Below, piece after piece: positions 1 through 4,509 of a DNA stretch of 38,363 nucleotides. Positions within the stretch are counted from its first letter, which is position 1; each line of letters starts with the position of its first letter. A program made the translations under genes and the position numbers. The notes below the pieces were generated by a model. The model saw only the letters and a program-made list of their open reading frames with translations, was not told the origin of the DNA and did not search any database. This DNA is from Bacteroidales bacterium (GTDB lineage Bacteria > Bacteroidota > Bacteroidia > Bacteroidales > UBA932): the NCBI GenBank assembly GCA_017616655.1, contig JAFZXU010000027.1:1-38363 (forward strand). The letters run 5' to 3'.

Positions 1-1109
1 TCCTCGACGAGCCCACCAACCACCTCGACACCGAGTCGATACAGTGGTTGGAGGCCCATCTGCAGCAGTACAAGGGTACCGTCATCGCAGTCACACACGA
101 CCGCTACTTCCTCGACAACGTTGCCGGCTGGATCCTTGAGCTGGACCGCGGAGAGGGCATTCCCTGGAAGGGCAACTACAGCTCCTGGCTGGAGCAGAAA
201 AGCGCCCGCCTGGCGATGGAGGAGAAGCAGGAGAGCAAGCGCCGCAAGACCCTCGAACGCGAGCTGGAGTGGGTCAGGATGGCACCCAAGGCGCGCCAGG
301 CCAAGGGTAAGGCCCGCCTCAACGCCTACGAGAAGATGCTCAATGAGGACACGAAGCAGAAGGAGGAGCGGCTGGAGATCTTCATCCCCAACGGACCGCG
401 CCTCGGCAACAAGGTCATCGAGTGCAAGGGCGTATCGAAGGCCTACGGCGACAAGGTGCTCTACGAGAACCTCACCTTCTCCCTCCCCCCTGCCGGCATA
501 GTGGGAGTCATCGGCCCCAACGGAGCCGGAAAGACCACCCTCTTCCGCCTGATCATGGGCTACGAGCAGCCAGACAGCGGCACCTTCGAGGTGGGCGAGA
601 CTGTCAAGATAGCATATGTGGACCAGCAGCACAAGAAAATAGATCCGGACCTCACGGTTTTCGAGACGATCGCCGAGAATTCGGAATTCGTGAAGCTCGG
701 CAACCGCGAGATGAACGCGCGTGCCTACATCTCACGCTTCAATTTCACCGGCGCGGACCAGGAGAAGAAGTGCGGCATCCTCTCGGGCGGCGAGCGCAAC
801 CGCCTGCACCTGGCCCTGACTCTCAAGGAGAACGCCAACGTGCTGCTCCTCGACGAGCCCACCAACGACGTGGATGTCAATACGATACGAGCCCTGGAGG
901 AAGGTCTGGAGGACTTCGCGGGATGCGCCGTGGTGGTCTCCCACGACCGCTGGTTCCTCGACCGCATCGCCACCCACATCCTCGCCTTTGAAGGCGAAGG
1001 GCAGGTCTATTTCTTCGAAGGCACCTACTCCGAGTACGAGGAGAACAAGAAAAAGCGCCTCGGCAACGTCGAGCCGAAGCGCTTCAAATATAAAAAGCTG
1101 AAAGAGTAA
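1..1109 (+). CDS. ettA: Energy-dependent translational throttle protein EttA (ABC-F ATPase), 5'-truncated by the window
   Basis: The gene is open at the left edge and is read in frame from base 3. The visible part begins at the Walker B/D-loop of the first ATPase domain (LDEPTNHLDTESIQWLEAHL) and its H-switch (AVTHDRYFLDNVAGWILELD). An arm/linker helix region rich in Lys, Arg and Glu follows. The second ATPase domain has Walker A GPNGAGKTT, signature LSGGERNR, Walker B LLLDEPTND and switch VVSHDRWFLDRIATHILAFE. The C-terminus, with YEENKKKRLG and a basic tail ending in KYKKLKE, is typical of EttA rather than Uup or other ABC-F proteins. EttA is a cytoplasmic ribosome-binding ATPase that gates entry into elongation according to energy state (family knowledge). 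The last 63 bases recur downstream of two AT-rich genes, so this 3' end looks like a duplicated junction. Product identity is secure; the start lies outside the window. Confidence 0.95.
   Translation, partial: LDEPTNHLDTESIQWLEAHLQQYKGTVIAVTHDRYFLDNVAGWILELDRGEGIPWKGNYSSWLEQKSARLAMEEKQESKRRKTLERELEWVRMAPKARQAKGKARLNAYEKMLNEDTKQKEERLEIFIPNGPRLGNKVIECKGVSKAYGDKVLYENLTFSLPPAGIVGVIGPNGAGKTTLFRLIMGYEQPDSGTFEVGETVKIAYVDQQHKKIDPDLTVFETIAENSEFVKLGNREMNARAYISRFNFTGADQEKKCGILSGGERNRLHLALTLKENANVLLLDEPTNDVDVNTIRALEEGLEDFAGCAVVVSHDRWFLDRIATHILAFEGEGQVYFFEGTYSEYEENKKKRLGNVEPKRFKYKKLKE
1047..1109 (+). repeat. ettA tail repeat, copy 1 (in the intact gene)
   Basis: These are the final 21 codons of ettA including the stop. 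They match 3692-3754 at 61 of 63 positions, with the first 44 bases identical. The two differences (1091 T/C and 1100 G/C) are both third-position and synonymous (Tyr, Leu). Bases 1053-1064 (AAGCGCCTCGGC) and 1073-1084 (GCCGAAGCGCTT) form a 12-base stem with one mismatch and an 8-base loop. Read on the minus strand, the stem is followed by TTTTTCTT, like an intrinsic terminator. Confidence 0.9.
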
Positions 1110-1171
1110 ATATTAACGAGATCACTATGTAAATCGCCAGGGGATAATAGCATGTCTGTATTGTAATACCT

Positions 1172-2653
1172 ATGATTAAACGCGTTTTCTTATTCTCCAT
1201 CCTAATTATGTTTTGTATAGGATGCAGCAAAAACACATATGAGGCAACTTCTCAAGAACCGTCATTTTTATTGGAAGAGGTCCAAAAAGAACTTGAATCA
1301 CAATTGAATTTGACTAGAAGCAGTCTCACCTCAGAATCTGTTTTTTTTGCTCAGAATGACATAGTCCCATTATGGAGCAAAGCGACTGTTACCGCTACAA
1401 ACGGAGAGATATACTGTGACATTCCTGTCAAATCATCAAAGATCTACAGACTTGTGTTGTTTGATGGATTATTTTATCACTTATCTGAAGCACATCATTC
1501 ACTTACCGCGATAATGAGCCGGGGTTCTATCACCTTTTATCATCACTACTTCATTCCTGTTCTAACAGAATTTTCATTGCCTAGTAACTACTCCAACGTA
1601 TTATACCGAGGGTTTTGTTGCCATGGCGAAAGAAATGGTTTCTCTGGATTTGAATTGTATTGCACTTTAGCAGGAAGAATCTTATCCTTCGACTATTACG
1701 AACAGGGCTCACTTATTAATCATATTTTTGCTGCAGAGAGTCAAAAAAACGAACAACAAATTATTGACTTTTTAAAAGCAACCGTTAGGTATTACTACTC
1801 AATAATTAAAGATACTCGATCAGATTTCGTCTGCCCTTATTGTGGAAATGGTATTTTTTGGGAGGATCCTTATCTTGGGTATATCTGTACTCATTGCCAA
1901 TTCTTTTCGTTTTATGATGGAGAGATTGAAGCATCACAAATATATGGAGAGTATACAGGCGGAGGTAACTGGAATGGAAATGGGAACAATTGCCCTCCGA
2001 TAGACCCGAGTGGTCCGGGAGATGACGGGGGTAACAATAATGGTTCTAGCGGCAGCAGCAGTTATACTGATCACCTTCTGACAACGACGTACAGTGGAAA
2101 TAACAATATTACTTTTTGCTACCCAGATTCTCTTAGCACTGAAGCAATTGCAAGTCTTAACGCAACAATCACTGCTGTTTTGGATTCATTATCACAATTA
2201 TCAATAACAGAGAGCCTTATGAATTCATTAAGCAATATCCCTATCACATTTGTATATGATACGACAATTACTCATCCAGCTGAAGTCGTTTTGAGCGAGA
2301 ATAAGGTTAAATGGAGAAGCGCACAAACGCCCATTATCGCAGAAGAGCTTTTCCATATTTTTCAACACCTTAACCCTTTATTTCAAGGATTGTATCCATC
2401 GAATTATGAATTTGAAGCAAAGTGCTTTTTAGTTTTATCTTATCCCATTACGTACCTTACTTCTTTATTCGGCTCACTTTCCTCTTTTGTATGGAATAAT
2501 GCTGTTCAGTATAATAACACTAAGAATGATACATACCGGATGAACCTTATTAATTCTATGCATACTCTGATGGGATATGATATGTCTACCATTCAAGTAT
2601 TGACAAATATGTTACCCAATATAGACATGCTTGATATTGGGACTGACGAGTAG
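1172..2653 (+). CDS. Exported lipoprotein with a zinc-ribbon-like CxxC pair and a possible degenerate zincin domain
   Basis: 493 residues and visibly AT-rich beside its neighbours. A hydrophobic signal segment ends in a lipobox (MFCIGC, Cys18), so the protein is probably anchored in an envelope membrane. Residues 221-242 carry two CxxC pairs (CPYC at 221-224, CTHC at 239-242), a rubredoxin/zinc-ribbon pattern. A Gly/Asn/Ser-rich linker follows around residues 260-295. In the C-terminal domain, EELFHIFQH at 391-399 resembles the active-site helix of zincin peptidases but does not fit HExxH exactly. The function is not recognised. Its downstream partner starts 20 bases after the stop and is also exported. 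The pair lies between two ettA tail copies, so it is probably acquired. An inactive or unusual metallopeptidase is possible; that is inference. Confidence 0.75.
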   Translation: MIKRVFLFSILIMFCIGCSKNTYEATSQEPSFLLEEVQKELESQLNLTRSSLTSESVFFAQNDIVPLWSKATVTATNGEIYCDIPVKSSKIYRLVLFDGLFYHLSEAHHSLTAIMSRGSITFYHHYFIPVLTEFSLPSNYSNVLYRGFCCHGERNGFSGFELYCTLAGRILSFDYYEQGSLINHIFAAESQKNEQQIIDFLKATVRYYYSIIKDTRSDFVCPYCGNGIFWEDPYLGYICTHCQFFSFYDGEIEASQIYGEYTGGGNWNGNGNNCPPIDPSGPGDDGGNNNGSSGSSSYTDHLLTTTYSGNNNITFCYPDSLSTEAIASLNATITAVLDSLSQLSITESLMNSLSNIPITFVYDTTITHPAEVVLSENKVKWRSAQTPIIAEELFHIFQHLNPLFQGLYPSNYEFEAKCFLVLSYPITYLTSLFGSLSSFVWNNAVQYNNTKNDTYRMNLINSMHTLMGYDMSTIQVLTNMLPNIDMLDIGTDE

Positions 2654-2673
2654 AATAGTATCTCTCATTGTCC

Positions 2674-4379: not shown

Positions 4380-4441
4380 CAATAATCACTCTTTTGGTTG
4401 GCACCGCAAGATAGCAAGGCCGATAACCTGTAACAATACCC

Positions 4442-4467
4442 TAAACGTTTATATTCGTTTATAAACG
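4442..4467. repeat. Two adjacent perfect palindromes with a direct repeat
   Basis: TAAACGTTTA (4442-4451) and CGTTTATAAACG (4456-4467) are each perfect palindromes. CGTTTATA also recurs directly (4446-4453 and 4456-4463). They lie 4 bases before the A-run that leads into ettA tail copy 3. They could be a recombinase or repressor binding site; function unknown. Confidence 0.5.
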
Positions 4468-4478
4468 CTTAAAAAGAG

Positions 4479-4509
4479 AAGCGCCTCGGCAACATCGAGC
4501 CGAAGCGCT
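4479..4509 (+). repeat. ettA tail repeat, copy 3 (hairpin core only); putative terminator for the 4682-8182 genes
   Basis: 31 bases match ettA 1053-1083 with a single G/A change in the loop. Similarity stops on both sides, so only the hairpin core is kept. Arms are 4479-4490 and 4499-4509. Read on the minus strand, the hairpin is followed by CTTCTCTTTTT, so it can terminate transcription from the BPL_N genes. All three copies have the same orientation. Confidence 0.8.

Follow-up and report, generated by a model that had tools for sequence, protein, structure and literature searches.

The ettA locus and its repeated gene end

The 3' end of the ettA gene of a Bacteroidales bacterium of rumen or gut type occurs in part or in full three times within a few kilobases, and two small, apparently foreign gene modules lie between the copies. 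The window, i.e., the whole stretch of 38,363 nucleotides (nt) analysed, is contig JAFZXU010000027.1 of GCA_017616655.1, an assembly of 73 contigs and 2.09 Mb that is 93%-complete (handles in G, C and L denote genomes, contigs and loci; this genome is G000 and the contig C66). The 3' 353 codons of ettA occupy 48..1109 on the plus strand, the contig start falling within the gene, and match the NCBIfam model NF008775 EttA with 608.5 bits (cut-off 599). On the same strand follow a 493-amino acid (aa) lipoprotein-like protein (1172..2653) and an open reading frame (ORF) for a 339-aa exported partner (2674..3693). The minus strand then carries a HicB-like antitoxin of 132 aa (3744..4142), the HicA toxin of 77 aa (4149..4382), and bpl1, which encodes an exported protein with a BPL_N domain (4682..5944).

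Copy 1 of the repeat (1037..1110, plus strand) is the functional ettA 3' end, and copy 2 (3682..3755, plus strand) lies between the 339-aa ORF and hicB at a spacing of 2645, with 70/74 positions identical. The last 21 ettA codons (1047-1109 and 3692-3754) differ by two third-position changes, TAT/TAC and CTG/CTC. The left-hand differences, at 3687 and 3691, coincide with the final codons and the stop codon of the 339-aa ORF, and the part of copy 2 that is surely derived from ettA extends from about 3692 to 3743. Copy 3 (4479..4509), terminator-like on the minus strand, consists of the hairpin core only (30/31 identical), and the sequence outside the core gives just the scattered A/T matches expected of A-rich DNA. 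Hence there is a gradient of decay, with copy 2 almost intact and copy 3 reduced to the core. The G+C content is 37.5% between copies 1 and 2 (1110-3681) and 42.7% between copies 2 and 3 (3756-4479), against 60% in ettA and 57% in 4682-8209. These repeats, their two synonymous changes and the low-GC modules between them had been described in an initial annotation of the window, and all of them were borne out.

The 30-nt core was found at exactly three sites in the whole assembly when up to 3 mismatches were allowed, and was absent from 60 other genomes, of which 36 belong to the same genus; the exact core pattern was absent from viral contigs. The repeat is thus no product of chance, nor is it a dispersed terminator, an identity against which the initial annotation had cautioned and which the count of three copies rules out. 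The same annotation took the synonymous differences as a hint that the copies stem from separate ettA alleles. However, the variant base of CTC (3745) is also the middle base of the hicB stop codon, and some members of the genus, for example those at L192 and L196, have an ettA that ends in CTCAAAGAGTAA. The CTG/CTC difference is therefore ambiguous and is weak evidence for a second allele; one clean synonymous difference is left between the two tails.

The empty site in relatives

The nearest relative by ettA DNA is G013 (90%), in which the TAA of ettA is followed by CC and then by the stop codon of a convergent bpl1 orthologue (87% identical). Next to this gene come bpl2 (86%) and others whose order is conserved, so that about 3.57 kb (1110 to ~4679) is extra in the window lineage. 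The empty site for which the initial annotation had suggested a search among relatives therefore exists. A single-copy empty site in a relative and an insert bounded by a long direct duplication are the marks of insertion with long target duplication, and both are present here. A convergent bpl-like gene (45-53% at the aa level) also stands directly after ettA at L009 (G008) and L010 (G028), and the remaining members of the genus carry other genes behind ettA.

No same-strand repeat of the gene's own tail was found at 27/36 or better in 79 of the 80 ettA loci retrieved (the other has no readable stop), or at 26/36 or better in 35 of 36 genus stretches (one is without a full tail); the two sets overlap, and their flanks range from tens of bases to 12 kb, several being short. 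An extra tail-like match in G026 is weak (E 0.82). A second ettA tail in G035 was considered as a further insertion and was not counted, as it stands at the edge of a contig and reads like an alternative assembly of one locus. In that genome (L167/L168), short repeats surround a gene right behind ettA, which we take to be transposase-like, and the second assembly path is without this gene; the paths suggest strain variation at the same spot.

Matches to the ettA tail were found in 6 records of the phage and 69 of the plasmid collections, and the stretches of the 4 records inspected out of these 75 contain no second tail. Two of the four (MT836900.1, L203; OY726028.1, L204), filed as phage and plasmid, are unannotated, resemble bacterial chromosome and carry ettA or its end, and the other two are annotated plasmids with a whole ettA. 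One of the latter, the Bacteroides ovatus plasmid record NZ_CP081918.1 (L206), has conjugative-transfer genes and two annotated integrases on the 5' side of ettA.

A predicted antisense terminator within the ettA coding end

The hairpin at the heart of the repeat has the form of an intrinsic terminator for leftward transcripts, i.e., those of the opposite strand, an aspect that the initial annotation overlooked. On the plus strand the hairpin contains a C.A mismatch, the equivalent of which on the minus strand is a U.G pair. The minus-strand stems are consequently unbroken in copies 1, 2 and 3 (13, 13, and 11 pairs) and are followed by a T-run, which gives a GC-rich hairpin with a U-run on one strand. 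The hairpins lie at 1052..1085 in copy 1 and 3697..3730 in copy 2, and the fold z-scores of the three copies are -4.6, -4.5, and -5.3. Between 900 and 4800 there are 5 terminator-like sites on both strands together (2.1 +- 1.8 in shuffles); 4 are on the minus strand, of which three are the repeat copies and the fourth has 5 pairs. Copy 2 stands directly past the hicB stop, and copy 3 about 170 nt past the bpl1 stop, after a long palindrome; both read leftward, and termination there is predicted. In G013 the loop differs, yet a stem of 12 pairs with a T-run occupies the same place inside ettA.

The survey of such hairpins covered 111 ettA loci whose downstream sequence extends to 300 bp or more (window excluded, G013 included), or 99 after the removal of identical loci. 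A strong antisense terminator, defined by at least 8 pairs, 5 G-C, and 5 T in 8 inside the last 90 nt of ettA, was present in 13/43 loci whose convergent neighbour lies no more than 150 bp away versus 1/56 others (Fisher p 5.6e-5). This single locus is one of the 12 among the 56 with an undetermined neighbour. On the sense strand, strong terminators were found in 0/99. When the 78 loci whose ettA is of sufficient length were reduced to single representatives of sequence clusters, the convergent class gave 4/10 up to 8/26 versus 0/13 up to 0/39 (p 0.0003 to 0.024), the p values leaving out loci with undetermined neighbours (1/7 up to 1/11).

Likewise, the last 30 codons were resampled from each gene's own synonymous codons. 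Convergent loci bore the terminator in 9/27 cases against 2.1 expected, loci with a co-directional or distant neighbour in 0/40 against 4.0 expected, and those with an undetermined neighbour in 1/11 against 0.5 expected. By this null, the ends of ettA appear to be selected for termination where a gene converges upon them, and against termination otherwise.

hicAB and its junctions

HicA is recognised by Pfam PF07927 (E 9.7e-11), and its neighbour shows a weak match to a HicB-like PHROG (E 0.042) and has orthologues; the pair thus joins a HicA family member to a partner that is HicB-like, by profile only weakly. Orthologues of hicB (79-80% identity) sit elsewhere in G003, G033, G004, and G029, the neighbours having been examined for G003 and G029. 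The end SFTL* of the window hicB is kept in 4/4 orthologues, two of which are nearly identical to each other, and is therefore native. The homologous block runs from an operator-like motif of the GTTTATAAACG type (4443..4469), similar to one upstream of hicA in L215-L218, to the hicB stop, so that the hicAB unit takes up nearly every base from copy 2 to copy 3. The fetched flanks of the four orthologues contain no ettA core (best 16-19/30).

Both the stop of hicB (3744-3746) and that of the 339-aa ORF (3691-3693) lie within copy 2, as had been annotated initially. The end of the ettA copy on the plus strand and the native end of hicB on the minus strand overlap by 12 nt (3744..3755), of which 11/12, 10 of them contiguous, are common to copy 1. 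Given this overlap and the orthologues without a core, the joints look illegitimate, i.e., made with little homology. The 339-aa ORF ends in CGAGGCGAATAA just inside copy 2 on its left; the corresponding ettA sequence is CGAGGAGAACAA, and this joint may be partly homologous. A resemblance by eye between the left edges of the ettA repeat and of a repeat at an rluB-like gene (see below) was set aside as probably due to chance.

Such joints could also be the product of templated insertion, in which the modules were joined by non-homologous repair while template switching copied nearby pieces of the ettA end, the hairpins being kept as terminators. The short shared sequence at the hicB joint and the bare palindrome that copy 3 forms at its joint would be in keeping with this. 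But the same source would have to be used twice, and the distribution of alleles at the rluB-like locus, with the common allele in the remnant and the variant in the functional copy, is not predicted; we consider templated insertion quite improbable.

Between copy 3 and bpl1 lies a long imperfect palindrome (4531..4673), which folds as RNA with -66 kcal/mol and is a dispersed repeat, possibly of the MITE (miniature inverted-repeat transposable element) or REP (repetitive extragenic palindromic) kind. It has matches in 6/40 genus genomes, own included, namely 5 in the own genome (itself counted, two adjacent), 16 in G021, 9 in G013, 6 in G025, 4 in G006, and 1 in G031. The inner ~46 nt are its most widespread portion.

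The lipoprotein module and its relatives

The 493-aa protein matches nothing in Pfam or NCBIfam at E 0.01. It has what we take to be a lipobox, an N-terminal domain found also in paralogues, two CxxC pairs, a G/N-rich linker, and a variable C-terminal part with EELFH. The profile of the family (A1) is matched in 2/40 genomes of the genus and 4/393 of the order, own included both times; in viral contigs 5 pattern matches gave 0 confirmed lipoproteins. One paralogue matches Aspzincin_M35, a zinc-peptidase family, below the Pfam cut-off (25.5 vs 30 bits).

In G297 (L104, G297:C62:102000-121900) the lipoproteins form an array; their N-terminal stretches are near-identical and their C-terminal parts vary, and behind each comes a small exported ORF of low G+C content. 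Between the modules there are further copies of the 3' end of the ORF that precedes and of the 5' end of the ORF that follows. The shared N-terminus, the variable C-terminus, the small gene downstream and the arrays are those of polymorphic toxin-immunity architecture, and the G297 locus looks like such an array. The 493-aa/339-aa pair is similarly toxin-immunity-like, toxicity and immunity being predictions. Homologues of the 339-aa ORF occur in G013 and G027, neither of which matches the lipoprotein profile; at G013:C39 (L251) the homologue sits amid several small low-GC exported ORFs, which could be an orphan immunity cluster.

The same footprint as at ettA is seen in G001, where a 300-aa ORF of the lipoprotein family precedes a gene that we presume to be rluB-like, placed after codon 12 of its duplicated start. 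A 36-nt direct repeat (35/36) flanks the insert and starts exactly at the ATG of this gene. Empty sites, where the upstream region runs into the gene without interruption, are found in G027, G033, G024, and G036. Among the 29 rluB-like loci fetched, 11 have the MENK head, and the 8 that are alignable all have Gly; in G001 the remnant has this common Gly and the functional copy has Val.

Direct repeats bounded by gene limits, at ettA as well as at the rluB-like gene, would be explained by a Campbell-type route in which modules are excised as circles with one copy of the gene end and re-enter other strains by homologous recombination there. Yet this demands crossovers within 36-74 bp and a prior repeat-flanked state, and leaves the overlap between the ends of hicB and ettA without explanation, on which grounds we hold the Campbell-type route to be unlikely.

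Recombinases and the question of site-specific integration

No recombinase gene was found in the element, serine recombinases and transposases having been sought by Pfam scans of 27 of the window ORFs. A search with PF00589 found no tyrosine recombinase on C66, in agreement with the initial annotation, and four elsewhere in the assembly, on C7, C28, C43, and C10. That annotation suggested a search of the genome for tyrosine recombinases with attachment sites matching the ettA tail; the surroundings of the integrases on C43 and C10 hold no ettA-like core (best 16-17/30). At C43 (L105 2875-8771) a perfect 23-nt direct repeat recurs 5.9 kb apart with a tyrosine recombinase beside one copy, and the stretch is a probable integrative element. 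Its repeat presumably resembles a tRNA 3' end; a scan of the stretch with ARAGORN gave no tRNA.

A tyrosine recombinase acting in trans could have used the palindrome of the ettA tail as attB; the modules would then be small elements whose attP matches it and whose entry leaves the end of ettA restored. The 30-nt core, with imperfect arms of 11 bp around 8 bp, is a plausible recombinase site, the match of copy 3 is confined to this core, and direct repeats bound each module with the gene end restored. Four candidate enzymes exist in the assembly, and in NZ_CP081918.1 integrases and transfer genes lie ~0.5 kb and more upstream of ettA, although the stretch has a single ettA tail. On the other hand, a tyrosine recombinase is lacking on the contig, the core at up to 3 mismatches occurs nowhere else in the assembly or in 60 relatives, nor exactly in viral contigs, the orthologous hicAB units are without it, and the native tail expected beside bpl1 is absent. 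Moreover, the related module of G001 uses an unrelated gene end, the likely integrase element on C43 has a perfect repeat adjoined by its integrase, and a literature search, in which other wordings were not exhausted, found no relevant report on ettA as an integration or attachment site. Site-specific integration is hence quite unlikely. The initial annotation had read the locus as repeated insertion, either site-specific or homology-driven, at the 3' end of ettA. Serial insertion that leaves ettA intact is supported, with the empty site of G013 and the low G+C content in its favour; the site-specific half is not supported, and the homology-driven half fits better.

Proposed serial one-sided insertion at the ettA end

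The reading that we prefer, with a probability of roughly one half (about 0.5), is that the modules arrived by serial homologous insertions of one end, closed by microhomology joins, and that the remnants were kept as terminators. Ordinary homology and sloppy joining account for the locus better than a dedicated integrase does. Ancestrally, ettA and bpl1 would have been convergent with stops 2 bp apart, the leftward terminator of bpl1 lying within the coding end of ettA. The donor of each module would have been a relative in which it already stood behind ettA, and the incoming DNA would have been linear, hicAB entering first and the lipoprotein/339-aa module second. At one end the DNA would recombine homologously within ettA, and at the other an illegitimate join of short homology would connect it to the old ettA tail of the recipient.

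The old tail would thereby be duplicated and pushed outward, copy 2 being the next-to-last tail and copy 3 an older one cut to its hairpin. Such remnants may have been retained because they stopped leftward transcription, that of hicAB at copy 2 and that of bpl1-bpl2 at copy 3. The repeat would start or end at a gene boundary because the homology of donor and recipient ends there, its inner edge would be the illegitimate join, and the functional gene copy would be the donor's. In favour of this reading, which accounts for most of what is seen, stand the empty site of G013, the association of antisense hairpins with convergent neighbours, the native hicB end that overlaps the end of ettA, the gradient of decay from copy 2 to copy 3, and the like footprint in G001.

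Several observations weigh against serial one-sided insertion. A strain bearing just one of the two modules was not found, so that the order of insertions is one that we infer, and ettA compared with G013 shows no mosaic (86-95% identity per 100 nt). The native end of the 339-aa ORF is absent from any orthologue, which leaves its joint unproven. Copy 3 runs into 21 unrelated bases and the dispersed palindrome without the remainder of an ettA tail, so that one has to suppose a subsequent deletion or replacement. For the terminator, synonymous resampling of the window alone yields one in 23% of draws, 30/43 convergent loci are without a strong hairpin, and when every terminator-like site is counted the contrast falls to 17/43 vs 9/56; the loci surveyed are also related, and a simple codon score served to call the genes beside them. 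Finally, the paralogue module of the own genome (L103 7493-12201, G000:C36), between what we take to be rimM and pgm (phosphomannomutase-like), has no flanking repeat, nor do the modules of G232 (near a contig edge) and G113. Together with G001, G297, and ettA, duplicated gene ends are thus seen at 3/6 places examined.

If serial one-sided insertion is correct, toxin-antitoxin and toxin-immunity-like modules without a recombinase could settle and stack beside housekeeping genes, and the scraps of gene ends would be a readable record of the order of insertion. The testable general point is that the last codons of ettA in Bacteroidales appear to be shaped for opposite-strand termination of a convergent neighbour. 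A wider and speculative extension, which we think unlikely to hold, is that the end of a core gene, where it bears an antisense terminator serving a convergent neighbour, is a landing pad of a general kind that works without an integrase. The gene-end copy of the donor would address conflict modules to it, each arrival would leave an insulating terminator, and toxin-antitoxin or toxin-immunity modules would gather there in order of time.

Comparison with known systems

Genomic islands of the integrase type at the 3' ends of genes restore the gene end and have direct repeats on both sides. The ettA locus shares the restored gene end and the direct repeats at both ends. It differs from such islands in that no integrase is found in cis, no core lies beside the orthologous hicAB, and the related module has another target; moreover, the distal boundary is without an intact native gene end, as copy 3 runs into unrelated sequence before bpl1.

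The insertion of restriction-modification genes with long target duplication (Nobusato 2000; Furuta 2010; both as described in parts of PMC1643837, PMC3874152, and PMC3031569) is similar in its long direct duplication flanking the insert, in the empty site of a relative and in its addiction-type cargo. In those descriptions the duplications are of ~100 bp, whereas here they are of 36-74 bp, nested, and end at a stop or start codon.

The lipoprotein module recalls the SitA polymorphic lipoprotein toxins of myxobacteria, which in the sections of the report drawn on here are lipoproteins with a shared N-terminal part, a variable C-terminal domain and a small adjacent gene (PMC5562445). The present proteins are from Bacteroidales, however, and the likeness is one of architecture, toxicity and immunity being predicted.

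The closest parallel in mechanism is the stacking of type VI secretion system effector-immunity modules in Vibrio cholerae, for which homology-facilitated illegitimate recombination has been proposed (PMC5361080). As described in the consulted portions of that report, successive modules enter one locus with anchor homology on one side and an illegitimate join on the opposite side, older pieces are displaced outward, a 3'-end remnant is left, and an integrase is not known, all of which is like the ettA locus. The Vibrio anchor, according to the same portions, is the upstream part of the effector module, the effector being displaced, whereas here it is the end of a housekeeping gene; at ettA, a type II toxin-antitoxin pair is part of the cargo, and the remnant resembles a terminator. 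The stacking mechanism thus has precedents, and the ettA locus would be a variant in which the scrap left behind, from the end of a housekeeping gene, also serves to terminate leftward transcripts.

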